In this document: one piece after another, positions 33,173 to 50,186 of the stretch | Numbering within the stretch: the stretch's first letter is position 1 | Layout: each line of letters begins with the position of its first letter | NCBI GenBank assembly: GCA_028819235.1 | Contig: JAPPMC010000270.1 | Coordinates: forward strand, 1-64,000 | Origin: Bryobacterales bacterium | GTDB lineage: Bacteria; Acidobacteriota; Terriglobia; Bryobacterales; UBA6623 | DNA length: 64,000 nucleotides | Direction: 5' to 3' | Program-made: the position numbers and the translations under genes | Notes under the pieces: generated by a model | What the model was told of the DNA's origin: nothing | What the model saw: only the letters and a program-made list of their open reading frames with translations | The model's database searches: none

Positions 33173-34606
33173 CTACGCACAGAGATCCTCCACTACCCGC
33201 CCGAAGACATCGGAGAGGCGCACGTCCCGCCCTCCGAAGCGATAGGTCAGACGCTCGTGGTCAACGCCAAGTAGCCGTAAGACCGTGGCCCACAAGTCGT
33301 AGACACTCATCGGGTTCTCGGCGACATGGTATCCGTACTCGTCCGTGGCTCCGTACACACTCCCGGCGCGGGAACCTCCGCCGGCGAGCCAGACACTGAA
33401 TCCGAAAGGATTGTGATCTCGCCCGTCCTTGCCCTGGGCGAACGGCGTCCGGCCGAACTCGCCGGCCCATATGACGAGGGTCTCGTCAAGCAGACCGCGC
33501 GCCTTGAGATCCTTCAGCAGGCCGGCTATAGGCTGGTCGACCTGCAGGGCCATGTCGGTGTGCCCGTCGACAAGTTCGCTGTGCTGGTCCCATGGATTGC
33601 CAACCTGCCCAGGCACGCTCGGCCGCATCAGGCACGTCAATTCGACAAAGCGCACGCCGCGCTCGACCAGCCTCCGGGCCAGTAGGCATTCCCGGCCGTA
33701 CGCGGCCGTCTCGGGGTGTTCCGAATCCATGCCGTACAGCCTTCGAGTAGCTTCGCTCTCTCCGCTGAGGTCGAGCAGGTCAGGCACGGCCGCTTGCATG
33801 CGGTAAGCCGTCTCGTAATTGCGGATGGCGGCCTCGATCGCCGGCGCGGCGTCGCCCTCCGGAGCGTATTGCCGATCCAGAGCGTGGATCAGGGACAGCT
33901 TCTTCCGCTGCAGCGAATCCGGGTCCGCCGGCCGAATGTTGTTGAGGGCCTCAGCCTCCTCCGGGTACAGGAATGAGGCCTGGTGTACGGCGGGGAGGAA
34001 TCCGTTCCCATAGATGCCGACGCCGCCCAACGGAATGCCTCCGCTGGCAAGTACGACGAAACCCGGAAGGTCTTCGCTCTCGGAGCCAAGGCCGTAAGTG
34101 GTCCAGGCACCAGCGCTCGGATGACCGAGGAACGGATGTCCGGTGTGAATGAAGTAGTTCGCCTGAGCGTGCTCGTTTCCCTTGCTGGTCATGCTGCGGA
34201 TGATGCAGAGATCATCAGCGCAGGTGGCGATGTGCGGAAACAGCTCGCTGACGTGGATCCCGCTCTCTCCGTAGCGGCCGAAGGTCCAAGGACTGGGCAT
34301 GATGCCCCCCACGTCGTTGAACATCGTGGGCTGCACCTTGCCGGGCATTGGCTTGCCCGCATCCTTCTCAAGCCGGGGCTTTGGGTCGAACGAGTCCACC
34401 TGGGATACGCCGCCGGACATGAATAGGAAGATCACGCTCTTTGCCCGCTGGGGAAAGTCCGGCTTGCGCGTGCCGTCGGGTGCGCCGGCCCGCAAGCGCG
34501 GGAACAGGGCCGAGAGGGCCAAGCCGCCGAAGCCCGTGGAGCAGCGCGCGAGCATCTGTCGCCGCGACACAGCGGGAGGGAACGTGGATGACGGCCGGTT
34601 AGGCAT
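33173..34606 (-). CDS. DUF1501 family secreted protein (sulfatase-like fold)
   Basis: 477 residues with a twin-arginine leader ([19 protein letters not shown]). DUF1501 landmarks are [83 protein letters not shown] and GRDHNPFG. The fold is related to alkaline phosphatase/sulfatase but its activity is unknown. The ATG overlaps the TGA of the upstream PSD1 gene (TGATG), so the two are translationally coupled, the classic DUF1501-PSD1 pairing known from Planctomycetes, Verrucomicrobia and Acidobacteriota. Confidence 0.9.
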
Positions 34607-37600
34607 CAGCGGAGATAGATGAATTCCTTGAGATTGAACAGCGACTGGGCGTAGTCAGCCCAGAGGTCCCGGCTTCCAAGCCAGCCGCGGCGCGCCAGAC
34701 CGCGCTCGCGGGCAAAGGCCGCCAGCGATGTCATCAGCATGTCAGTCTCCTCCGCATCCGGCACCCTCCCGAGCGCCCGCCGGAACATGCGGATGACCCG
34801 GTCACGAGGCGCGATAGCGCCATCGGCCAACGCTCGGTCGGCCCAGCGGGTAGCCTGGCTTACAACAAACGGATCATTGAGAAGCGCTAGCGATTGAGCT
34901 GGGATGTTGGTAACGTCCCGGCGACCTCGGGTGGTCGAAGGCTTGGGGGCATCAAAGACCTCCAGCAGGGGATTCTGGGCGTTGCGGCGGATAGCCTGAT
35001 AGACACTGCGGCGTCGCCCGCCGTCGAGCGGCCCCTTGTCTCGGACGCCTTCGGTCTTGCCCACGAAATAGACACCGATACTGGGGCCGTACATGGCGCG
35101 GTCCAAGTCACCCGAGGTCTCCAAAATGCCGTCACGGATCGATTCGGCCGGCAAGCGGCGGACGTTCTGGTGCTGCAAAAGCCGGTTCTCGGGATCTGTG
35201 GACTGAGACGCCGGCGATGCCTGGGTGGTCATGCGGTATGCCCGGGAAAGGACCATCAGCCGCACCGTCTCCTTGATGGACCAGCCGTTGTCGACGAAGC
35301 GCGCTGCGAGGTAGTCCAGCAGCAGCGGGTGGGAAGGCTTCTCGCCTGTAGTTCCAAAGTTGTCCACGGTGGAGACGATGCCGCTCCCGAACAGGTAGTG
35401 CCACAGGCGGTTGACCAACACGCGTGCCGTGAGGGGATTGTCGGCGCTGGCGATCTCCCCGGCGAGTTCCAGGCGCCCGCTGTCGCTGGGGCGGAACGGC
35501 CTGCTACCGAGCAGCTCAAGGTACCGACGCGGGATCGGGTGGGTGGGCTCCGTGTGGTCCCCGCGCGAAAAGAGGGGCTGGTCAAAGCCGGTTCCCGGCA
35601 ATACTCCCGGTGCCCTGCGGGGAATCGGAACGTCTTGCTCAGCCTCGCGGTACGCGTCGACCGTGCCTTGCAGGTCAGGCAGTTCCGTGAGTCGGGATGG
35701 CAGCAACCCACGGCGCACTGCCCAGTCCAAGAACGCGGTCTGCCGGAGAGTGAGCGTACCCGCAGCCCAAGCTTCGGCCGCTTGGCGTGCGAGTTCGGCA
35801 AGCATCTCTTCAAAGTCCTGCACTGTTTCGGGAGGACTCTCACCCGAAAGCGCGTGGAGCATCGCCATGGGTTGTTCGGGCGGCGTGCTTTCCGTGTCGT
35901 GGAAGACGACTTCGGTGATCCCAAACGCAGAGCGACCGTCCTCGCTGGCCTTGCGCTCCGGTCTGCGGGCATTGAACCAGAAGGGCCTTGACCGGTCGTC
36001 CAAGGTTTGGAGCTGGAGATATGCCATCTGTCCCCGGCGGTAGGAACTGTCGAGGCGAATCCACTGCTGCCCATCCGCTGTCAGCTCCTTCATGGGATGG
36101 GTGCCACCGTCGCCGATCGGGTAGTTCTCGACGATCAGCTTCACGGACGCAAAGTTGCGGCCGAAGACTCGCAAGCTGACGGAGTCGCTGGAGACGCGGA
36201 AGCGGGGTGAGCCTAAGATCCCCCCGAACTTCTGGCTGTCCAGGCCACTGTGCAGTCCTGCCGGGAGGAGTCCTGACAGGATGCGGTCGCCCTCCGCGTG
36301 CACGCGGAATTCGCCATGGCCGGACGGCTCGGTGTGCAGACCGGGCCCGCTGCCGAACCACTGGCTGGCGTCCTCAATCAGGCGCAGGTCCCAAGCGGTC
36401 CGGAAGTCCCGCTTGCGGACCTCGCGGCGCTCTCGCGAGCGGTCAAACCATGTCGCGACCAGTTCACGCCATCGCTCACCCACGCTCCTGTCGCCTGGAG
36501 AGCGTAGCTCGAGCCAAGCGCGCAACGGGTCGTCTTCAGGTAGGTCCTCGCCCTGCAGCAGCTGCACCAGTGCTTCGACACGAGGGCTGTCCGATTCGGA
36601 TTCCGTGCCCTCTTCTTCGCCATTAGTGTCCGAGTCCAGCTGAACTCCCACCTCCTTCAGCAGGGACGCGATTGACCAAGAGCTGCCGGTCCAGGCCACG
36701 GACAATTCCGCCCGCAACTTCTCACGCAGACTCTCGAGACTGGTGCGTCCCCGTTGCAGCCGCTCAGGAGAGTCGACAGTCACGATTCCCGGTCTGCTGC
36801 TGGCAAGTATGCCGTACAACGCGAAGAAGTCAGCCTGCGTGATCGGGTCGAACTTGTGGTCGTGGCATCGGGCGCACGAGACGGTGAGACCTTGGAACGC
36901 CTTGGTCAGGACATCGATCTGATTGTCGACAACCTTGACCTGGTCGTCGAGGGCGTCTACCGGGACATACCCATACTCGACCATGCGCAGGTTGGCCGTG
37001 CCGTGCATGGATTCGTTGAGTCCCTCATCGGAGTTGGTGCGGGGCTCCTCAAGGAGGTCGCCTGCCAAGTATTCCCGCAGCATCTGGTCGTACGGAACGT
37101 CTGCGTTAAAGGCCCGAATGAGGTAGTCACGGTACCGCCAAGCGTACGGCAGCGTGAAGTCTCCCTGACTGCCGTGGGACTCGCAGTAGCGCACCCAGTC
37201 CATCCAGTGTCGAGCCCAGTGTTCGCCAAAGGTCTCCGACCCTAGAAGCCGCTCCACCAGAGCTTCGTAGGCATTGGGAGCCGAGCTGCGGGCGAATGCC
37301 TCTACGTCCTCCGGCCGCGGTGGCAAACCGGTCAGGTCGAACGAGATGCGGCGTATCAGTGTGCGGCGGTCGGCCTCATTCGCCGGGATCAGTCCGTTCG
37401 TTTCCAGGCCGGCGAGAATGAAACGGTCCACATCGTTCAGTAGCCAGCCTTCGTATTCGTCACTGAACCTAGGCGGCACTGCGGCTGTCACCGGGCGGAA
37501 GGCCCAGTGGGTGGCTGGACCATCGGGCGAGCTAGCGCCAGAGATAGCGCGGGTCGCACTCGAGGGCCAAACCGCGCCGTCTAAGATCCACGCCTGGACA

Positions 37601-37914
37601 TCGGCGATCTCCTCCGCGGACAGCTTCCCGCCAAGCGGCATCTGCAACCCCTCGTGGCGCAACGCCTGCACGACCAGGCTCGCCGCCGGTTTCCCGGGAA
37701 TGAGGGCTGGCCCGCGGCTGCCACCGCGCAGAACTCCCTCCCGAGAGTCCAGACGGAGTCCTCCTTGCTGCGATTGCGAAGAGTGGCAAGTCCAGCACTT
37801 CGTCGCCAGCAGAGGGCGCACACGGTTCTCGAAGAACTCGACCCTGTCGTCTCCCGAAAGGCCTGCTGCGGCGATGAAGGCGCAGACCGCCACTTTTGGA
37901 ATGCGAGCGGCCAT
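34606..37914 (-). CDS. PSCyt1-DUF1549-DUF1553 (PSD1) cytochrome c-like protein
   Basis: 1102 residues with an N-terminal signal. The first domain (about 28-100) is a PSCyt1 heme c domain: CWTCH at 40-44, then [19 protein letters not shown] and [12 protein letters not shown], which includes a candidate Met ligand. DUF1549 follows with [34 protein letters not shown] and [20 protein letters not shown], which contains a second CxxCH. After a variable middle with a jelly-roll-like stretch comes DUF1553 with [22 protein letters not shown] and YRMTTQAS. The molecular function of these proteins is undescribed; a periplasmic electron-transfer or sugar-oxidation role is often guessed. Confidence 0.9.
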
Positions 37915-38507: not shown

Positions 38508-38666
38508 CCCATCCGATTCGCGATTTAGAAGCCGCACCCGGTCACAAAGTCGCTTCCCCGCTCATCCCACATGTTTCCATGTTTCTCACGGCTGGAAGTG
38601 GGAGAACGGGCGGAACGGGCTCGTCACTTCGGGGGTTGCAGAACCCAACGGGCTAACCTGACTGCG

Positions 38667-40196
38667 ATGAGAACCGGACCTAGACTGACAATCCGCTTTC
38701 TGCTTGCCTTGGGCCTCGCGGGAGCCTCCATTGAGGCCAGCCAGCCGAACATCCTCTTCCTGATGTCGGACGACCATGCGGCGCACGCACTGGGCGCCTA
38801 CGGCGGGAGGCTGGCGCCGCTCGACCCCACGCCCGCGCTCGACAAGCTGGCGTCCGAGGGAATGCTGTTCGAGAACGCATTCTGCACGAACTCGATCTGC
38901 ACGCCGAGTCGGGCGACCCTGCTAACAGGGCAATACAGCCACGCGAACCGCGTCACCACCCTCAGCGGGCATTTGGAGGCGGATCGCCAGCATGTGGCCA
39001 ACCTGATCCGCGCGGCCGGCTACCAGACGGCCATGGTCGGTAAGTGGCACCTCAAGCGCGAGCCGGCCTTCGACTACTACTGCGTCTTGCCAGGCCAAGG
39101 ATCGTACTTCAATCCCGTCATGCGCGAGTCCCGGACGGGCCGGCCTTGGCCGGACAATTCGAGGCGATTTTCGGGCTACGACTCCGCGCATTCCACCGAC
39201 GTGATCGTGCAGGTTTCCATCGACTGGCTGAAGCGCCGGGACAGGGAGCGGCCGTTCTTCCTGATGCACCACTTCAAGGCGCCCCACGACAACTTCGAGA
39301 ATGCGGAGCGCTACGACTTCCTGTACGAAGATACCGAGATTCCAGAGCCTCCAAGCCTGTGGAGAGTGCCCAACCACGGCTCGGATGCAACGAGAGGAGC
39401 CGGCACGTCCATTGGCAAGCGCAACACGCGCCGCAACATGGGGCACCACATGTTCGTGGATCCGTCCTTGACCGCCGAAGACTACATGCGGACCGCCTAC
39501 CAGCGCTACCTGAAGAAGTACCTGCGCACCGTCCGGGGAGTCGACGACGGCGTCGCCCGCCTGCTGGAGTTCCTGGAGAGCGAGGGCGAGCTGGACAACA
39601 CAGTCGTGCTCTACACCTCGGACCAGGGATTCATGCTGGGCGAGCACGACTACATCGACAAGCGCTGGATGTACGAAGAGTCGCTGCGCATCCCCCTGAT
39701 CGTCCGCCATCCGGCCACCGTCGAAGCCGGCTCGCGCGACGATCACTTGGTCAACAACACCGACCTGGGCCCGACGATACTGAGCCTGGCGGGAGTCGAG
39801 CCTCCGGGATTCATGCAAGGGCGCAGCATCAGACCCCTCCTTATGCGAGGGGACCCTTCCGACTGGAGGCAGTCCACGTATTACCGCTACTGGATGAACT
39901 ACGCGCACCACGACGTGCCGGCCCACTACGGTGTCCGAACGAAGGAGTTCAAGCTGGTCTTCTTCTACGGCCTGCCGCTAGACGCCCCAGGCGCCAAGAG
40001 CGCCGATACGCGGCCCGGATGGGAGCTGTACGACCTGCGAAGCGATCCGCGGGAGGTGAAGAACGTGTACGGCGACCCCGCATACACAGAGGTGGCCGCC
40101 AACCTGAAGGCCGAACTGCTGCGCCTGAAGTCCGAAATCGGCGACAACGATGAGATGTACCCAGAGCTGATGGCGGTCCGGGACAAGCACTGGTGA
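38667..40196 (+). CDS. Secreted sulfatase (second copy)
   Basis: The ATG at 38667 gives 509 residues with a signal peptide (IRFLLALGLAGASIEA). It contains PNILFLMSDDHAAHALGAYGG (metal aspartates), SICTPSRATLLTG with the formylglycine cysteine, AMVGKWHLK, FLMHHFKAPHDNF, VVLYTSDQGFMLGEHDYIDKRWMYEES and a C-terminal ELYDLRSDPREVKNVY. It is a longer, different subfamily from the sulfatase at 30450, with the closing features of N-sulfoglucosamine/iduronate-type sulfatases. The stop overlaps the region before the quinoprotein gene, whose start lies 36 bases on. Confidence 0.92.
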   Translation: MRTGPRLTIRFLLALGLAGASIEASQPNILFLMSDDHAAHALGAYGGRLAPLDPTPALDKLASEGMLFENAFCTNSICTPSRATLLTGQYSHANRVTTLSGHLEADRQHVANLIRAAGYQTAMVGKWHLKREPAFDYYCVLPGQGSYFNPVMRESRTGRPWPDNSRRFSGYDSAHSTDVIVQVSIDWLKRRDRERPFFLMHHFKAPHDNFENAERYDFLYEDTEIPEPPSLWRVPNHGSDATRGAGTSIGKRNTRRNMGHHMFVDPSLTAEDYMRTAYQRYLKKYLRTVRGVDDGVARLLEFLESEGELDNTVVLYTSDQGFMLGEHDYIDKRWMYEESLRIPLIVRHPATVEAGSRDDHLVNNTDLGPTILSLAGVEPPGFMQGRSIRPLLMRGDPSDWRQSTYYRYWMNYAHHDVPAHYGVRTKEFKLVFFYGLPLDAPGAKSADTRPGWELYDLRSDPREVKNVYGDPAYTEVAANLKAELLRLKSEIGDNDEMYPELMAVRDKHW

Positions 40197-40207
40197 TGGC
40201 AGGCGGC

Positions 40208-40216
40208 TGCTATGCT
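40208..40216 (+). promoter_or_regulatory. Extended -10 element before the quinoprotein gene
   Basis: TGCTATGCT (TGn + TATGCT) lies 15 bases before the ATG at 40232, which would give a transcript leader under 10 bases. The position straight after the sulfatase stop suggests a separate promoter for the dehydrogenase. Confidence 0.4.
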
Positions 40217-40231
40217 GCCCGCGAAAATCAA

Positions 40232-42508
40232 ATGACCGACCTGCGCGCGCTGCTAGCAGGGCTGGCCCTCGCTGCGCCTGGGCTTGCGAACCCAGAGTTC
40301 CTTCCGGAGGCGAGTGAATTCGGCGCCCAGGACTGCCTGTTCTGCCACTCGGAAGCGGGTGGCGGTCGTAATTGGAACGAGCGCGGCCACTGGCTCATGG
40401 AGCGCAAGGCGACGCGGGGCGCCGACCGGGTCGACGTGGCCTGGCTGCACGAGTACTCTCCGGAATCCCCCGACGCGAGAACAGCCGCCGGCGACCAGCC
40501 GGGCCGGGATCCGGATCCGGGCCGCGTCGCGATGCCCACCACCTTCCACCGCGGTCCGTTTTTCGATCCCGTGCCCGACCGGGCAGCGTTGCGCCGTTGG
40601 ATCGAAACCCGGGGGAAATACAGCACGGCGGAGGGCGAGTGGCCCCAGTACTCCGGAGATCTGGCCGCCTCGAAGTATTCCCCGCTGGCCCACATCACCG
40701 CTTCGAACGTGTCCGACCTTCAGACCGCCTGGATCTGGGATGCGTTCGACAACGACCGCTACGTTCGTGAAGGCGAAGGGGATGGGCGGAGTGTGCCGCG
40801 CGCGATGCATCCGGACGGATTCAAGGCCACGCCCCTGATGGTTGCTGGCCGACTGTATGTGCGCACGAACTTCAGCGGCGTCGCCGCTATCGATGCCGCA
40901 ACCGGAGATACGGTGTGGACCTACGACCCAGGTACGGCCGACTGGGGGCGGCCCGGAATCTTTGGATTCGCGACGCGCGGGCTGGGCTATTGGCGAGACG
41001 ATACCGATGAGCGGATTCTGCTCTGCACAGGGGACAGCTATCTGGTGGCGCTCGATCCCGCCAACGGCAAGCCTGTGCAGAGTTTCGGCGACAACGGCCG
41101 CGTCGATCTCACCCAGGGGCTTCGGCGCCCTCTCGTCCGATCTCTGGTGAACTGCAGTGCACCCCCGACGATCGTCGGCGACGTGGCCGTTGTCGGCAAT
41201 CAGATCGCCGACGGCCCTCCCGGCCGCAACGTCCGCAGCGGGGGGCGGGACTGGAAGGAGAACTGGCCGGTCGGGGACGTGCGCGGCTACGACATCCGCA
41301 CGGGCAAACGGCTGTGGACCTTCCACACAATCCCACAGGAGGGCGAATTCGGGAACGACACGTGGGAGGGGGACTCGTGGCGCTGGACAGGCAACACCAA
41401 CGTCTGGTCGACGATGAGTTCGGACGAGGAGCTGGGCCATGTATACCTGCCCGTCACCGGTCCGACATTCAACTTCGTCGGCGGATTCCGTGAGGGTGAC
41501 AACCTGTTCTCGAACTGCGTGGTGGCCTTGGACGCCAAGACGGGCGACCGGGTCTGGCACTACCAGACCATCCGCCATGACATCTGGGACTGGGACCTGC
41601 CGGCAGCTCCGACGCTGATCGACATCACAGTGTCGGGCCGCCCGATCAAGGCGCTTGCACAGGTCACGAAGACCGGATTCCTGTTCGTGCTCGACCGCCG
41701 AACCGGCGAGCCGGTCTGGCCGGTCGAAGACCGGCAGGTGCCGCCCAGCGAGTTCGAGCAGGCGGCGGAAACACAGCCGTTCCCGACAAAGCCACCTCCC
41801 TTCGAGATGCAAGGTGTGGGCGAGGATGACCTGATCGACTTCACGCCCGAGCTCAGGGCCCGCGCGCTGGCTGCGGTCCGACCGCATCGGCTGGGACCGC
41901 TGTATGAGCCGCCGTCATCTGAGGGGACGGTCCAAGTCCCGGGTTGGGGCGGCGGCGCAAACTGGGGAGGAGCGGCATTCGACCCGGAGACTTCCTACGT
42001 GTATGTCTCGTCACGTCGGCAGTACATAGTCGTAGGCCTGCGCCCAGTGCCGGATCCGCAGCGGCGGGGATACGAGTTCGAGCACAAGTTCTTCCAAGCG
42101 AACGTTGACGGGCTGCAGGTCGTGAAGCCGCCGTACGGCACGCTGACCGCTTATGACCTGCAGCGGGGCGAGATCGCCTGGCAAGCACCTCACGGGAACG
42201 GCCCGCGTAGCCACCCCCTGCTGAAGGGCCTTGACCTGCCCCCGCTCGGCAATCCCAACGCGGCGGGAATCCTCGTGACGCGCACGCTGCTCTTCGCGGG
42301 CGACCGCGGCTACAGGTCCGAGAGCTCGTACCTGCGGGCTTACGACAAATCTTCCGGCGAGACGCTTTGGGAGCACCCGCTCCCGGGGCGCCACCACAAC
42401 GCCACGCCAATCACCTTCCTCGCCGGCAGCCAGCAGTACCTGGTGGTCGCCACGGGGGGCGCAGCCGAGCCCGCCAAGCTCATCGCCTTCCGCATCGCGG
42501 CGAAGTGA
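40232..42508 (+). CDS. PQQ-dependent quinoprotein dehydrogenase with N-terminal heme c motif
   Basis: ATG 40232 starts a 758-residue secreted protein (signal about 1-19). Right after the signal lies CLFCH (35-39), a single heme c site. From about residue 125 the quinoprotein propeller begins: WPQYSGDLAASKYSPLAHIT, SNVSDLQTAWIWD. W-repeats and active-site stretches follow (GDTVWTYDPGT, GDRVWHYQTIRHDIWDWDLPAAP, NWGGAAFDPETSYVYVSS, LWEHPLPGRHHNATPITFL). It resembles membrane-type glucose or alcohol dehydrogenases that pass electrons to a cytochrome; the built-in heme would act as first acceptor. PQQ synthesis genes are not in the window. Confidence 0.88.
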   Translation: MTDLRALLAGLALAAPGLANPEFLPEASEFGAQDCLFCHSEAGGGRNWNERGHWLMERKATRGADRVDVAWLHEYSPESPDARTAAGDQPGRDPDPGRVAMPTTFHRGPFFDPVPDRAALRRWIETRGKYSTAEGEWPQYSGDLAASKYSPLAHITASNVSDLQTAWIWDAFDNDRYVREGEGDGRSVPRAMHPDGFKATPLMVAGRLYVRTNFSGVAAIDAATGDTVWTYDPGTADWGRPGIFGFATRGLGYWRDDTDERILLCTGDSYLVALDPANGKPVQSFGDNGRVDLTQGLRRPLVRSLVNCSAPPTIVGDVAVVGNQIADGPPGRNVRSGGRDWKENWPVGDVRGYDIRTGKRLWTFHTIPQEGEFGNDTWEGDSWRWTGNTNVWSTMSSDEELGHVYLPVTGPTFNFVGGFREGDNLFSNCVVALDAKTGDRVWHYQTIRHDIWDWDLPAAPTLIDITVSGRPIKALAQVTKTGFLFVLDRRTGEPVWPVEDRQVPPSEFEQAAETQPFPTKPPPFEMQGVGEDDLIDFTPELRARALAAVRPHRLGPLYEPPSSEGTVQVPGWGGGANWGGAAFDPETSYVYVSSRRQYIVVGLRPVPDPQRRGYEFEHKFFQANVDGLQVVKPPYGTLTAYDLQRGEIAWQAPHGNGPRSHPLLKGLDLPPLGNPNAAGILVTRTLLFAGDRGYRSESSYLRAYDKSSGETLWEHPLPGRHHNATPITFLAGSQQYLVVATGGAAEPAKLIAFRIAAK

Positions 42509-42920: not shown

Positions 42921-43493
42921 ATGCCATCACGATCCGTTTGGGACGCCCGCTACCGCTTAGCGGCAGGCAGGCCGCCCGCGATCGACCCTTTCTTGGGTGA
43001 AGCCCGGGCTTTCTTGCCGAAGTTCTCGTCCGGGTCCGGCACGGCAGTTGACGTCGCTTGCGGCAGCGGCCGGCACTCGCTGGAGCTGGCCAGATGGGGC
43101 CTGCGCACTCTGGCGCTGGACTTCTCGTCACAGAGCCTGCGGATCTGCAGCGAGCGGGCCGAAGATGCCGGGCTGCCGGTCGAAGTGCGCTGCGTGGACC
43201 TTGAAGCTCCGGGGTTTGACCTGGGTAGCGAGTGCTTCGACGTGGTGGCAGTCTTCCACTACCTTCACCGCCCGCTGATTCCGGCTCTCCGGCGCGCCAC
43301 CCGCCGGGGCGGTATCGTCATCTACAAGACCTTCACGCTAAGGCAGCGGGAATTCGGCACGGGCCCGCGGAATCCCGACCACCTTCTTGTCGAGAACGAG
43401 CTCGCTGAACTGTTCGGCGGATACCGTCAACTCCTCTACCGCGAGACATGCGAGAACGAAGCCACAGCCGCGCTGATCGCCCAACGACCCTGA
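42921..43493 (+). CDS. Class I SAM-dependent methyltransferase (TehB-like)
   Basis: 190 residues: SVWDARYRLAAGRPPAIDPFL at the start, motif I VDVACGSGRHSLELA, LRTLALDFSSQSL (acidic loop binding the ribose), and FDVVAVFHYLHRPLIPALRRATRRGG. The C-terminus reads NPDHLLVENELAELFGGY, a layout like TehB and related small-molecule methyltransferases. The substrate is unknown. Its 3' end overlaps the next gene by 46 bases, so the two are probably co-transcribed. Confidence 0.8.
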   Translation: MPSRSVWDARYRLAAGRPPAIDPFLGEARAFLPKFSSGSGTAVDVACGSGRHSLELARWGLRTLALDFSSQSLRICSERAEDAGLPVEVRCVDLEAPGFDLGSECFDVVAVFHYLHRPLIPALRRATRRGGIVIYKTFTLRQREFGTGPRNPDHLLVENELAELFGGYRQLLYRETCENEATAALIAQRP

Positions 43494-45358
43494 CCGCAGC
43501 CGGGCTGCTAGCGTGCGGGCTGCTCGCGGGCGCCGGGGAGCCGCGTCTTGGCCGACAGCCTGACGGATCCATCCTGCTGCCGACGGGGCAGCGCCTGACT
43601 CCCGCCGGAGAGCAGCTCGCCACTGCGAGCCTGCCTATCGCCGTAGAGCCGTCCAATGACGGCCGCTACCTGCTGGTGCTGCAGGCGGGCTACGAGACAC
43701 CTGTGCTGAGCGCCATTGACGTCGAAACCAACGCGCTTACCGGGCAAGCGGAACTAGCGGACGCATGGCTGGGCCTAGCGATCCATCCATCCGGAGAGAG
43801 GATCTACGTGGGCGGAGGAATCCGGGGGAGTGTCTGGGAGCTCTCCTTCGGCGATGGGGCGCTCCGCCACGCCCGCGAGTTCTCGCTGGGCAGCCCGTGC
43901 CGCGGGAGGTGCGACTCGCTGATAGGGGACGTGCTGCTGGACGGCGATGGGCGTCTGCTCTACGCCTTGGACGTACTCCGGGACCGGATCGTTGTCATCA
44001 ACACGCAGTCGGGACTGGTCCTCGGCGAGATCGCGACCGGCGCGGCTCCTTACCGAATTCGCCTGACGCCGGACCGGGAGCATCTGGTGGTCAGTCACTG
44101 GGGAGAGGCCTCTCTCGGCCTCTACCGCTTGTCCGACCGGAGGATGGTGGAACGCGTCCCGGTTGGCGAACACCCCACCGACATCCGGATCGTCCCAGGC
44201 CTGGTGCGCGACCCCCGGGCTCCGGACGATGCCGAGGGACGCGAATTCGTCGCGCGCCTGTTTGTAGCCTGCGCCCACGCGGACAATCTGTGGACGCTTG
44301 GGATCGCCGAGGGGCCGCGCTTCGAATTCCTCGACGCTCGCAGCGTCGCCCCGCTCCCAGGTTCCCCGCTCGGATCGCTGCCCACTGCCCTAGCGCTGGA
44401 CCGCGACAACCGGACGCTGTACGTCGCCAACTCGGGCAACAACATCCTGTTGGTCGTCAATATCGAAGAGGCGCTGCCCGAACCGGCGGGGGCGATACCG
44501 ACGGGTTGGTTCCCTAGCGCCGTGGCCCCCCTCCCGGGAGGAGGACTGGCCTACCTCAGCGGCAAAGGGGACGGAGAACGTGGCGGCCTTCTCGGGGTGC
44601 TGCCGCCCCTCACAGCCGAGCAGCTCGACATGCTGACCGCTGCGGCGGTGGCCAACATCCCGGCACAGGCTCCGGCAGCGGCAGCGGCGCCGACCGGCGT
44701 TCGCCACGTCACGCTGGTCCTCAGCGACGCGCGCGGGCCGTCTTGGCGCAATCTACGCTCCCGCGGGGCATCGTTGGAAGGATTCGTGCCGACGGCTAAG
44801 AGCCGGCTGGAGCAGACGGCGGTCCTGACCGGCGGGATGGAGTCAGACTTCTTCACGAAGCTTGGCCCCGCCGTCCATGCCAATCGAGCGGCCGCCCGTG
44901 CCCTTGCCGCAGCGGGCAGGGCGGCACTTCCCGCCGCCGGTACGGTGTGGTCGAACGCGCAGCAGGCAGGCTTGGCCGCAGTGCCCTACGGCATCGGTGG
45001 AGGGCCGCCTCCCAGCGCGTTCATTTCCAGCGTCAGAGCGGGCTCGGAACTGCCGCATCTCGCAGTCGTCCGCCTCGCCGGATCACCAGACTCGCAGGAC
45101 AGGGAGTTGGGCCAATTGGCCGACGCGCTGCGGGAGCACCCGCTGTATTCCGGAAGCGTCCTGTTCGTCATCCCCACCGAATACCAGCTGGGGGCGGTCG
45201 CAGCGGGCGGGATAGTGCGCCGCGGTTCGTCCCCCGCCGGGCTGGTGTCGGTTCCGTCTGTGCTGCGCACGGTCGTCTGGCTGCTCGGGCTGCGCCCAAT
45301 GACCCAGCTGGTGACAGCGGCAGAGCCGCTGGCAGGCCTGTTCGTCGGTACACCCTGA
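43448..45358 (+). CDS. YncE-like beta-propeller protein with eroded phosphoesterase domain
   Basis: 636 residues with a signal peptide (TAAGLLACGLLAGAG). Residues ~30-400 form a YVTN/lactonase-type propeller: LPTGQRLTPAGEQLAT, VEPSNDGRYLLVLQAG, LGLAIHPSGERIYVGGG, DRNTRTLYVANSGNNILLV-like and IPTGWFPSAVAPL repeats. The last ~200 residues occupy the place of the alkaline-phosphatase-like phosphoesterase domain in bifunctional YncE proteins. The usual nucleophile and metal motifs (IKENRTYD, GDG and HD) are not visible; only the general spacing and the final LRTVVWLLGLRPMTQ segment remain. The C-terminal domain is probably inactive. The protein is likely periplasmic. Confidence 0.72.
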   Translation: MRERSHSRADRPTTLTAAGLLACGLLAGAGEPRLGRQPDGSILLPTGQRLTPAGEQLATASLPIAVEPSNDGRYLLVLQAGYETPVLSAIDVETNALTGQAELADAWLGLAIHPSGERIYVGGGIRGSVWELSFGDGALRHAREFSLGSPCRGRCDSLIGDVLLDGDGRLLYALDVLRDRIVVINTQSGLVLGEIATGAAPYRIRLTPDREHLVVSHWGEASLGLYRLSDRRMVERVPVGEHPTDIRIVPGLVRDPRAPDDAEGREFVARLFVACAHADNLWTLGIAEGPRFEFLDARSVAPLPGSPLGSLPTALALDRDNRTLYVANSGNNILLVVNIEEALPEPAGAIPTGWFPSAVAPLPGGGLAYLSGKGDGERGGLLGVLPPLTAEQLDMLTAAAVANIPAQAPAAAAAPTGVRHVTLVLSDARGPSWRNLRSRGASLEGFVPTAKSRLEQTAVLTGGMESDFFTKLGPAVHANRAAARALAAAGRAALPAAGTVWSNAQQAGLAAVPYGIGGGPPPSAFISSVRAGSELPHLAVVRLAGSPDSQDRELGQLADALREHPLYSGSVLFVIPTEYQLGAVAAGGIVRRGSSPAGLVSVPSVLRTVVWLLGLRPMTQLVTAAEPLAGLFVGTP

Positions 45359-45398
45359 CGGCCCCGGATCCTGCCGTTGCAGCTAGGTGAGAGACACT

Positions 45399-48300
45399 AT
45401 GAAGGTCGGTGACATGCAAGCTGCCATGAGCACGCGCAGGTTCAAGAGGGCCAAGCCCATCGTCGATTTCCCGGCAGTAGAGCGGGAGGTGAGCGAGTTC
45501 TGGGATGAGAACAAGGTCTTCGAGAAGAGCCTGGAGATTCGGCGGGGGAAAGAGCGCTTCATCTTCAACGAGGGCCCTCCCACGGCCAATGGCCTGCCCC
45601 ACAACGGGCATGTGCTGACAAGGGTCTTCAAGGACGTCTTCCTGCGCTACCGCACCATGGCCGGCCGCTACGTGCCGCGCAAGGCCGGTTGGGACACCCA
45701 TGGCCTGCCGGTGGAGGTTGAGGTCGAGAAGGAGCTTGGGATCCACGGCAAGAGAGCCATCGAGGAATACGGGGTCGAGCGCTTCATCCGCAAGTGCATG
45801 GATTCGGTCTTCCGGTACACCGAACAGTGGGAGCAGATGACGCGTCGGGTCGGTTTCTGGGTCGACCTTCCCGACGCCTACGTCACATACCACAAGTCGT
45901 ACGTCGAGAGCGTCTGGTGGGCCTTGTCGCGCATGTATCGCCAAGGGCTCCTGTATCGCGGCCACAAGGTCGTGTGGTGGTGGCCGCAAGGGGGCACGGC
46001 CCTCTCGGCTGGAGAGGTGGGCCTTGGCTACAAGACCGTCGCGGACCCATCGGTCTACGTGGCGGCACCGCTTGCCGATGAGCCGGCGACTTCGCTGCTG
46101 GTCTGGACGACAACTCCATGGACGTTGCCGGCCAACCAGTACGTGGCTGTCAGACCAGGCGTCGACTACGCGCGGGTTCGGCTCGGTGACAGGAGCCTCA
46201 TCCTCGCCGCGGCCCTTAAGGCAGAGATCGAACAGAAGCTCGGCCAGACGCTGCACGTCGAAGAGATACTGACCGGCACGGAGCTGCTCGGGAAACGCTA
46301 TCGGCCCCCCTTCGCCCACTTCGAGCAGCGCCACTGGAACTCCGAGGGGAGGCTGCGGGACGGCGGCCGGGAGCCGTACCTGTGGAAGGTTGTCGCGGCG
46401 GACTTCGTCACGCTGGACAGCGGGACAGGGCTTGTGCACCAAGCCCCGGCATTCGGCGAGGTCGACTACGACCTGCACCGCGAGCTGGCCGGACGGTACG
46501 ATTCTCCGGAGGCCGTGCCCCTGCTGTGCCCCGTGCGGCCGGACGGTCGCTTCGACTCCAGCGTCGCTGAGGTGGCCGGGCAATGGGTGAAGCAGGCTGA
46601 CCGGCAGCTGGTCCGGATGCTCGCGGATAGCGGTGCCCTGATCCACCGCGAATCCTACCGCCACGAGTACCCGTTCTGCTGGCGCGCGGACGACGACCCG
46701 CTGATCCAGTACGCACGGCCAGCCTGGTTCGTGCGGACGACCGCGCGAAACAGGGAGGTGCTGGCCAACAACGACAAGATCCACTGGCTGCCCCCCCACA
46801 TCGGCACAGGCCGCTTCGGCGACTTCCTGCGCAACAACATCGACTGGGCGCTGTCCCGCGAGCGCTACTGGGGAACACCGCTGAACGTGTGGGTCAACGA
46901 CACCACCGGAGCGGTACAAGTGCCGGCGTCGTGCGCGGAGATCCTCGCCAAAAACCCGTCCGCATTCGACCACTTCCACCGCGAGCAGCGCTCAGATCCT
47001 TCGCTCCCCGACGACCTGATGGTCCACAAGCCGTGGGTCGACGAGGTGACGTGGACGGAGCCAGGCGAGCCGGGCGTCTACCGGCGTGTGCCGGAGGTCA
47101 TCGACTGCTGGTTCGACTCCGGGTGCATGCCCTTCGCCCAGTTCGGCTACCCGCACCAAGGGCGGGAAGAGTTCGAGTCCCGCTTTCCGGCCGACTACAT
47201 CACCGAAGCGATCGACCAGACCCGCGGCTGGTTCTACTCGCAGCTGATGGTCTCGACGTTAGTGTTTGACGAGGAGTGGGGGCGCGAACTGGGGATCCCG
47301 GCGCCCGAGTATCCCCACCCGTTCCGGAATTGCATCGTCTTGGGGCACGTTGCGGATCCCTCCGGCAAGAAGGAGTCCAAGTCCTTGGGCAACTACACGC
47401 CGCCGGAGGTGATCTTCGACCGCGTCGCCCAAGACTTCGCGGTGCTAGACGGCAAGGCAGGCCAGAATGGCCCCCGCGCAGGACAGATGCGGATCTCGCC
47501 GCACGACCTGCGGGCTCTGGACCTCAATGCCGGCGACGCAGTGACCGTCTCGGGCTTCTCCGGAACGTCCGCACGAGTGAGGGTGCAGCCATCCAAGTCC
47601 GTGCCGCGCCGGTCGGCGCTGCTGTCCGCGGGCGATCGGCGGGAGCTTGGAGCCTTGGCGGCCCCTGGCCGCACGGCCCCGATCGACGTGCCGCGGCTGC
47701 CGGCCGAGAGCAAGGTCACGCTCGACGTGCCCTCTCCGGCACCAGGCGCCGACGCGTTTCGGTGGTTCTTCCTCGCCGGCAACCCGCCGTGGTCGCCGAC
47801 ACGCCATTCGCTGGCCAACGTGCGAGCGATCCAGAAGGAGTTCCCCCTCAAGCTGCGCAACGTCTACTCGTTCTTCACGATCTATGCGGACATCGACGGC
47901 TTCGATCCGGTCGCGATGCCCGGACGCCCCGCCTCGCAGCGTGCTCTGCTGGACCGCTGGATCCTGTCCGAATTGGACATTCTGGCCGGGCGCTTCCGCA
48001 AGCACATGGACTCGTTCCTCGCGTTCGAGGCGGCTGGTGAGCTGACCCGTTTTGTAGACGGTCTGTCGAACTGGTACGTGCGGCGCAGCCGGGGGCGGTT
48101 CTGGAAGGGCGCAATCGACGAGGACAAGGTGGACGCCCACGCGACCCTCTACGAGTGCCTAGTTGCGGTGGTCAAACTGAGCGCCTCCTTTACGCCATTC
48201 ATGGCCGAGGAAATCTACCAGAACATCGTCCGCGACGCGGGGGTGGACGGGCCGATGAGCGTCCATCTGTGCGACCTGCCCCGTAGCCGTGGACGAGAGG

Positions 48301-49058
48301 ATGAGGGGCTCTCCGAAGAGATGACCGCCGTTCGACGGATCGTCTCGCTGGGACTGCGGGTCCGGACTGACCACCAACTGAAGGTCCGCCAGCCGCTGCG
48401 TCGGGCGGAAGTGGTCATCGCGGACCCCGACCTGCAAGATCGGGTCCGGCCCTACTCGGGACTGATCGAGGACGAGCTGAACGTCAAAGAAACCTGCTTC
48501 TTGCAAGCCTCGGAGGCCCACGTACGCTACTCGGTCAAGCCAAACTTCCGCCGGCTCGGACCGCGCCTAGGAAGGAAGATGAAGCGCGCCAAGCAGGTGT
48601 TTGCGGGCCTCGACGCAGCGGGGTTGCGGTCCCGCCTACTGGAGACCGGCAGCGCGACGATCGACTTTGACGGTGAGGATGTCACGCTGGACCGTGAGGA
48701 CGTGCAGGTCACCGTCGAGGCGCAGCGGAAGTTCGCCGCGGCGGGAGACTCTGCGATGGTCGTCGTGCTGGGAACGGCTCTGGACCCGGAGCTGCGTGAC
48801 GAGGGGCTCTACAGGGAACTGCTGCACCGCGTCCAGAACCTGCGCAAGTCTGCGGACATCGAGTACACGCGGCGGATTGCGCTGTACGTAGACGGAACCG
48901 AGCGCATCCGACGGATCGTGGCCGACAATCGAGGGCACCTGATGGAAGAGACCCTGTGCACCAGCCTGATGGACGATGCACCGGCTGGTCCGGGCACGTA
49001 CGAGCAGGCCTTTGCGATCGACGGGGAACAGGTCCGGCTGGTAATGCTGCCGACCTGA
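45399..49058 (+). CDS. ileS: Isoleucyl-tRNA synthetase with an inserted domain
   Basis: ATG 45399 follows AGGTGAGAG and gives 1219 residues, well over the usual ~930-1070. The HIGH motif appears as PTANGLPHNGHV, followed by KAGWDTHGLPVEVEVEKELG. The CP1 editing domain contains TTTPWTLPANQYVAV and GTGLVHQAPAFGEVDYD. The KMSKS loop reads KESKS (residues 658-662, in GKKESKSLGNY). After PPEVIFDR, an extra ~107 residues interrupt the protein before GADAFRWFFLAGNPPW resumes the normal sequence. The anticodon-binding part (LSNWYVRRSRGRFW, TPFMAEEIYQNI) is intact. It charges tRNA-Ile and is expected to be essential. An ATG at 45426 is an alternative start. Confidence 0.95.
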   Translation: MKVGDMQAAMSTRRFKRAKPIVDFPAVEREVSEFWDENKVFEKSLEIRRGKERFIFNEGPPTANGLPHNGHVLTRVFKDVFLRYRTMAGRYVPRKAGWDTHGLPVEVEVEKELGIHGKRAIEEYGVERFIRKCMDSVFRYTEQWEQMTRRVGFWVDLPDAYVTYHKSYVESVWWALSRMYRQGLLYRGHKVVWWWPQGGTALSAGEVGLGYKTVADPSVYVAAPLADEPATSLLVWTTTPWTLPANQYVAVRPGVDYARVRLGDRSLILAAALKAEIEQKLGQTLHVEEILTGTELLGKRYRPPFAHFEQRHWNSEGRLRDGGREPYLWKVVAADFVTLDSGTGLVHQAPAFGEVDYDLHRELAGRYDSPEAVPLLCPVRPDGRFDSSVAEVAGQWVKQADRQLVRMLADSGALIHRESYRHEYPFCWRADDDPLIQYARPAWFVRTTARNREVLANNDKIHWLPPHIGTGRFGDFLRNNIDWALSRERYWGTPLNVWVNDTTGAVQVPASCAEILAKNPSAFDHFHREQRSDPSLPDDLMVHKPWVDEVTWTEPGEPGVYRRVPEVIDCWFDSGCMPFAQFGYPHQGREEFESRFPADYITEAIDQTRGWFYSQLMVSTLVFDEEWGRELGIPAPEYPHPFRNCIVLGHVADPSGKKESKSLGNYTPPEVIFDRVAQDFAVLDGKAGQNGPRAGQMRISPHDLRALDLNAGDAVTVSGFSGTSARVRVQPSKSVPRRSALLSAGDRRELGALAAPGRTAPIDVPRLPAESKVTLDVPSPAPGADAFRWFFLAGNPPWSPTRHSLANVRAIQKEFPLKLRNVYSFFTIYADIDGFDPVAMPGRPASQRALLDRWILSELDILAGRFRKHMDSFLAFEAAGELTRFVDGLSNWYVRRSRGRFWKGAIDEDKVDAHATLYECLVAVVKLSASFTPFMAEEIYQNIVRDAGVDGPMSVHLCDLPRSRGREDEGLSEEMTAVRRIVSLGLRVRTDHQLKVRQPLRRAEVVIADPDLQDRVRPYSGLIEDELNVKETCFLQASEAHVRYSVKPNFRRLGPRLGRKMKRAKQVFAGLDAAGLRSRLLETGSATIDFDGEDVTLDREDVQVTVEAQRKFAAAGDSAMVVVLGTALDPELRDEGLYRELLHRVQNLRKSADIEYTRRIALYVDGTERIRRIVADNRGHLMEETLCTSLMDDAPAGPGTYEQAFAIDGEQVRLVMLPT
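47424..47744 (+). other. Inserted domain within IleRS, CDC48-N/double-psi-barrel-like
   Basis: Residues ~676-782 of the synthetase. The core reads QMRISPHDLRALDLNAGDAV, then TVSGFSGTSARVRVQPS and later SKVTLDVP. The RxSPxDxxxLxLxxGDxVxVxG pattern, followed by a second strand pair, is like the double-psi beta-barrel of CDC48 N-terminal or AbrB/aspartate-decarboxylase-like domains. It sits directly after the KMSKS-equivalent loop and before the stem-contact fold. The fold call is by motif only. Confidence 0.5.
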
Positions 49059-49082: not shown

Positions 49083-50186
49083 ATGGAGACACCAACAGCC
49101 CAAGTCGACGGTGCCCCCCGGCCGCTGGTCGGTCTGGACTTGGGCGAGCTGATGGCATTGGTCCGGGACGCGGGCGAGCCCCCCTACCGGGCCCGCCAGC
49201 TATATCGCGGGCTGTACCGGGATCACGCTGGCAGGGTCTCGGAAATCTCGACGCTTCCGCTGGCGCTGCGGAACGGGCTGCTGCGCGATTGTGGCTCGGG
49301 CCTTCCCGACGTGCGCCAGAGGCACACGTCGACGGACGGTACGGTTCGCTACCTAGTTGGGCTCGAGGACGGCCGGACGGTGGAGTGCGTGTTCATCCCG
49401 GAACGGGCCAGGGACACGCTCTGCATTTCCAGTCAGGCCGGATGTGCCGTCGACTGCCGATTCTGCCTGACGGCCCTGATGGGCCTAGAGCGCAACCTCA
49501 CGGCCGGGGAAATCGTAGGCCAAGTCCTCGCCATCGCGGGGGACAGGGGTCTCGAGCCGCGCCGGCGTCCGGTCAACGTGGTGATGATGGGCATGGGCGA
49601 GCCGCTGCTGAACCTTGGCCCGGTCATGAAGGCCACGCGCCTGCTCGCGGATCCCGCGGCCGTCGGCATACCGCAGCGGCGGATCACGGTCTCGACATCC
49701 GGAATCGTCCCCAAGATCGCCGAATTCGGAGCCAGTGCTGTCCGGGGAAAGCTAGCCATCTCGCTCAACGCGTCCAGCCAGAGGCAGCGGGCGGAGATAA
49801 TGCCGATCTCCTCGAAGTACCCGTTGGACGCACTGCTTGACGCGTGCCGCAGCTATCCTCTGCGCCGCTGGGAGCGATTGACCTTCGAGTACGTGTTGCT
49901 TAGGGACGTGAACGACTCGGACACAGACGCGCGCAGGGTGGTTGGCCTGCTGGCGGGGCTGAAATGCAAGGTGAACCTGATCGCCCTCAACCCCGGCCCC
50001 GGTATCGAGTTCGCCACGCCGTACGATAGCCGGGTAGCGGCGTTCCGGTCGATCGTGCACCGGCGCGTACCGTGCTTTGTGCGCACGCCAAAGGGCCGCG
50101 ACATCTTCGCGGCGTGTGGGCAGCTACGGCGCACCGCTTCTCCCCGGCCAGGGCAAACGGATCCGTCCGAAGACCGAAACCTATAA
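49083..50186 (+). CDS. rlmN: 23S rRNA (adenine-2503-C2)-methyltransferase RlmN
   Basis: 367 residues. The N-terminal accessory domain has [14 protein letters not shown]. The radical SAM cluster is in [17 protein letters not shown]: the three cluster cysteines preceded at the right spacing by the resolving Cys of RlmN. Further markers are [37 protein letters not shown] and [12 protein letters not shown], and the methyl-carrying Cys in [10 protein letters not shown] near the C-terminus. RlmN methylates A2503 of 23S rRNA and A37 of some tRNAs. It follows ileS by 24 bases, so both may be co-transcribed translation genes. Confidence 0.93.

Follow-up and report, generated by a model that had tools for sequence, protein, structure and literature searches.

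The isoleucyl-tRNA synthetase (IleRS) encoded in the window, that is, the whole stretch of 64,000 nucleotides of Bryobacterales DNA analyzed here, carries an additional domain directly behind its KMSKS loop, which is predicted to be a double-psi beta-barrel. Judged from the alignments, the insertion is a trait of a whole clade and not an oddity of one genome, and it is linked to altered second residues in both class I catalytic motifs, which read HNGH and KESKS. The initial annotation of this DNA had pointed out the domain and overlooked the two substitutions.

The gene, ileS (positions 45387–49058, forward strand), encodes a protein of 1223 amino acids, whose actual start could be Met5 or Met14. 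Its product scored 760.3 bits with the IleRS equivalog model TIGR00392 (curated cut-off, 621.4) and can thus be assigned to IleRS, while the score with the MupA-like model was 742 bits, under the MupA cut-off. The protein belongs to type 2, as it was placed outside the IleRS1 rows in the tree and has an IleRS2-type C-terminus, a region that matches DUF5915. By both sequence and structure, the closest relatives in the PDB are those of Priestia megaterium IleRS2 (8c8u/8c8v), and 1003 residues of the predicted structure align to 8c8u with a Z score of 44. The class I signatures HxGH and KMSKS are present as HNGH (residues 72–75; 45600–45611, forward strand) and KESKS (residues 662–666; 47370–47384, forward strand), with the catalytic His and Lys retained and the second positions altered. 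This gene is the sole ileS above the cut-off in a 98%-complete genome, so the enzyme is presumably essential. Compensation by a second, ordinary IleRS in the genome was ruled out on the same ground.

The gene rlmN (49083–50186, forward strand; TIGR00048, 340.6 bits) lies directly downstream of ileS, with 24 bases between the ileS stop and the rlmN ATG. Just upstream (43448–45358), a gene encodes a 636-aa protein that weakly matches a lactonase beta-propeller and has no NCBIfam hit at 1e-10. Neither a T-box nor any other Rfam element was found near ileS. Elsewhere in the window, 34606–37914 (reverse strand) and 38571–42508 (forward strand) hold a planctomycete-type cytochrome c/DUF1549/DUF1553 protein, with a sulfatase and a PQQ dehydrogenase as neighbours.

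When the protein was compared with 8c8v by phmmer, residues 32–673 and 787–1194 aligned, and only seven chain residues of 8c8v (601 to 609) lay between the two blocks; about 107 residues (680–786; 47424–47744, forward strand) are therefore extra in the query. They lie directly behind KESKSxGNYTPP, between PPEVIFD and GADAFRW, and the GADAFRWFFL helix that follows (residues 787–796; 47745–47774, forward strand) resumes the IleRS fold. Phe791, in this helix, is nearly specific to the clade with the insertion. We place the insertion point behind the KMSKS loop and ahead of the helix leading into the stem-contact and anticodon-binding part. The initial annotation had described an in-frame block just after the KMSKS-equivalent loop, containing MRISPHDLRAL and GDAVTVSG. 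Both peptides are present and its nucleotide coordinates proved exact; the position was supported by the alignment, and the reading frame was confirmed by the open reading frame, phmmer, and in-frame conservation across the family. Its residue numbers (676–782) were off by four, as would fit a count from the internal Met5. Chance or a frame artefact was ruled out, as the insertion is in frame across the family, at 181 loci, and under purifying selection.

The structure of the inserted domain was predicted twice with AlphaFold2. In the full-length enzyme the mean pLDDT was 93, with mostly 91–97 in the barrel blocks, and in the isolated insert it was about 95–98 in the barrel; across both predictions the barrel was mostly at 90–98. 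A disordered insertion, which the initial annotation had named as grounds for dropping its proposal, was thereby ruled out, and a well-ordered barrel was obtained instead. The predicted model has six strands in the order E-E-H-E-E-E-H-(H)-E, as is typical of a double-psi beta-barrel. In Foldseek and VIA-align comparisons, p97/Cdc48 N domains ranked first (E 1.8e-6), with a Z score of 15.0 and 1.7 A over 87 residues of the p97 Nn subdomain (residues 21–107), and the Foldseek matches included the designed barrel 7dvf. A profile built from compact forms of the insert also retrieved designed symmetric double-psi barrels first from the PDB, weakly (E 0.016–0.2). The guess of a CDC48-N-like double-psi barrel was thus borne out, and, as far as prediction goes, the fold can be regarded as established. 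The likeness is one of predicted fold: the insert is 14% identical to p97/Cdc48, lacks the Nc subdomain and the AAA+ ATPase, and is embedded in a synthetase. In agreement with this, it scored 18.0 bits with CDC48_N (PF02359; gathering threshold, 35.1) and is not counted as a member, although the models indicate that it shares the fold. It also scored below the threshold of Molydop_binding (PF01568; 22.7 against 26.8 bits).

In total, 181 loci carry the insertion, some of them being copies of one another between collections, and the insert occurs in a long form of ~110 aa and a compact form of ~89 aa. The carriers are Bryobacterales, another acidobacterial family, Myxococcus, Sorangium, and Polyangium, and a few Planctomycetota. 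In the source family, the insertion was present and in frame in 18 of 18 genomes, and in the sister family it was found in one genome; in the other members searched, the IleRS is of type 1 or another kind and lacks it. A scan across GTDB genomes, which was seeded with the peptides KESKS[LK]GN and PGADAFRW and is hence biased to such sequences, gave 80 loci, all of which matched the insertion region over its full length; these were from Bryobacterales, Myxococcota (Myxococcus, Polyangium, Sorangium, and Labilithrix), and single MAGs that bear the labels Planctomycetota, Geobacter, and Gammaproteobacteria. Surveys of phyla with the protein or a flanked profile, which are less biased than the peptide-seeded scan, revealed more carriers, among them compact forms from another acidobacterial family and from the phylum to which locus L093 belongs. 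Myxococcaceae genomes often have a second IleRS, of type 1, and in Sorangium So0157-2 the insert-bearing IleRS was the single match at E<=1e-20. The insertion is therefore general to one IleRS2 clade rather than peculiar to this genome, which is half of what the initial annotation had named as grounds for refuting its proposal (a general feature of one clade that is also described); no published description of it was found in the literature searched, the reach of which left out most subscription papers. A double-psi barrel in synthetases was likewise not found in that literature, and neither Myxo- nor Acidobacteri- occurs in the main text of the two IleRS2 phylogeny papers searched.

The HIGH and KMSKS motifs are near-universal in class I synthetases, and changes of their second residues are unusual. 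In an alignment of 103 rows, which included 79 insert carriers and 23 rows without KESK, Asn73 (second position of HIGH) and Glu663 (second position of KMSKS) were each present in 79/79 carriers and 0/23 of the non-KESK enzymes. These 23 have Pro, Ile, Tyr, Trp, Val, or Ala at the first of the two positions and Met, Leu, or Gln at the second. The KMSKS motif of the carriers reads K-E-S-K-(S/R/Q), and KESKQ is found in L066 and L089. Within the barrel, the loop between strands 4 and 5 (R741–R742; 47607–47612, forward strand) is conserved as KxLPRR in the long inserts. Position 741 is always basic (Arg in 68/68 long and Lys in 11/11 compact inserts), and the second Arg is replaced by Asp or Glu in the compact ones. 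On the anticodon-binding side, Trp824 gives way to Arg or Lys in most carriers, with Arg also in 5 of the 23 others. A generic basic RNA-binding patch was not supported, the mean net charge of the insert being slightly negative (–1.3 for long and –1.8 for compact forms). APC-corrected mutual information between insert and core (Neff 78) gave no usable signal, only lineage structure being visible. Because all these links arose a few times at most, the co-occurrence of insertion and motif changes may come from shared ancestry.

Other unusual IleRSs were also recovered. L145, L147, L210, and L211 have KQSKS or KQSKR without the insertion, so that Gln takes the place of the KMSKS Met, as it does in AgnB2 LeuRS. 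The extra IleRS-like proteins L027, L194, and L196 (genomes G047, G492, and G474) score above the ileS cut-off, have a degenerate KMSKS (TRFSKTG, KEMHKS), and branch outside the remaining IleRS2 rows in the tree. In six IleRS2 enzymes (L232, L253, L254, L213, L256, and L257), HxGH is replaced by a non-canonical G/AxHH, a motif tied to mupirocin hyper-resistance (PMC10485003).

Six related KESK enzymes have no barrel: L200, from the phylum of Myxococcus, and five from 379 genomes of another phylum. They form one clade with support of 100/100, and HNGH is present in all four with a readable N-terminus. These enzymes rule out that KESK goes strictly together with the barrel, and they show that the polar motif pair does not depend on it. 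In wide, quick trees the HNGH/KESK rows form one clade (SH-aLRT 97–99). In a small, careful tree, the HNGH/KESK group also takes in KMSKS rows from the Planctomycetota-type survey that have no barrel, but a single KESK clade was not rejected by the AU test (p-AU 0.20). Constraining the insert carriers to one clade without loss gave p-AU values of 0.155 and 0.068. The barrel-less clade either lost the barrel or split off before the barrel arose. As for selection, the dN/dS of the insert was 0.18–0.34 in most close pairs, and that of the core was 0.05–0.15 in Bryobacterales, where the insert evolves two to five times faster than the core; in Myxococcus, the values for insert and core were similar. 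The insert is thus constrained, yet less so than the core in Bryobacterales, and the purifying selection makes it unlikely to be junk.

The explanation we consider best, with a probability approaching but not reaching even, is that the barrel, as a domain specific to this clade, regulates an otherwise complete IleRS2 in cis, buttressing or tuning the KMSKS loop. The Cdc48-Nn-type barrel would sit in the inter-helix loop that runs from the KMSKS loop to the helix toward the anticodon-binding half, a position in the sequence from which we infer that it docks by the active site. There it could buttress or gate the mobile KMSKS loop, and such gating would tune closure on ATP and entry of the tRNA 3' end. 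According to a published proposal (Tang et al.), HxGH and KMSKS are each anchored to the anticodon-binding domain by their hydrophobic second residue, with acquired domains coordinating the two motifs (PMC10450160). In this clade, the hydrophobic coupling would be swapped for a polar Asn/Glu pair, perhaps aided by R824, and in the carriers the barrel would assist the pair through the invariant basic residue 741. That the enzyme works with the barrel is indicated by its serving as the sole IleRS here and by the lone match in Sorangium So0157-2, and the barrel-less KESK clade shows that the polar pair is able to work alone.

The whole architecture resembles that of P. megaterium IleRS2 and MupA, including the CP1 editing domain and the C-terminal region; those enzymes, however, have no insertion after KMSKS, and they have KMSKS and HVGH where KESKS and HNGH are found here. 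The LeuRS-specific (LS) domain is likewise an extra domain adjoining the KMSKS loop, and it is reported to move from one state to another, to buttress that loop, and to guide the tRNA (PMC5059758). The barrel would act in a similar way without belonging to the LS family: the LS-domain is smaller and precedes KMSKS in LeuRS, whereas the barrel follows KMSKS in an IleRS, and the two are likened by their working only. A polar residue at the KMSKS Met is also found in the self-immunity LeuRS AgnB2 (KQSKS), in which the loop is shifted; in that case, it is a Gln in one plasmid-borne enzyme without the LS-domain (PMC5059758), while here a whole clade has Glu, accompanied by the Asn of its HIGH motif.

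A bolder version, in which the polar Asn/Glu pair and the barrel together make this a rewired class I synthetase with an allosteric KMSKS gate answering to a ligand or partner protein, seems to us unlikely. Ranked next, and also improbable, is an anti-inhibitor role, with the polar pair and the barrel closing or reshaping the HIGH–KMSKS cleft and shielding IleRS from mupirocin-like natural products. The mupirocin tail is indeed forced into this cleft in IleRS2 (PMC10485003), the self-immunity of AgnB2 involves KQSKS and a missing LS-domain (PMC5059758), and soil myxobacteria are among the carriers; nevertheless, IleRS2 enzymes in general resist mupirocin without the insertion, and the adjacent domain in the AgnB2 case raises sensitivity, not resistance.

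The nearest structural matches, the p97/Cdc48 N domains, are protein-binding, and the fast evolution of the insert in Bryobacterales is what exposed binding surfaces may show. Recruitment of a partner to IleRS or the translation complex, as the p97 N domain does, is still doubtful and placed behind inhibitor shielding, as the Nc half is absent, the long and compact forms share no surface motif except residue 741, and no partner gene was found. Contact of the barrel with the acceptor stem or inner corner of tRNA-Ile is less probable again: although general knowledge of class I synthetases puts the insertion site where the stem-contact region begins, the KxLPRR loop is conserved in long forms, and the LS-domain assists tRNA binding in LeuRS (PMC5059758), the insert is slightly acidic in both forms and the compact one has Asp or Glu for the second Arg. 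The lowest standing goes to a tolerated decoration with little function, which we regard as quite improbable. It would account for the rapid evolution in Bryobacterales and for the one fully supported clade that retains the motif changes without the barrel, but the domain was kept across several phyla under purifying selection, with an invariant basic residue at 741.

Although the function of the barrel as a support of the KMSKS loop is what we infer, the linked motif changes make the trait more interesting as enzymology and less as a genome peculiarity. The second residues of HIGH and KMSKS belong to a network thought to couple the class I catalytic motifs, and here is a natural clade with both positions polar, including the cultivable Myxococcus, Sorangium, and Polyangium, most members of which add a barrel. 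Together with the related group that has the motif change and no barrel, it amounts to a natural experiment in which the effect of an acquired domain on a class I catalytic switch can be studied, and the architecture may bear on resistance to IleRS inhibitors.
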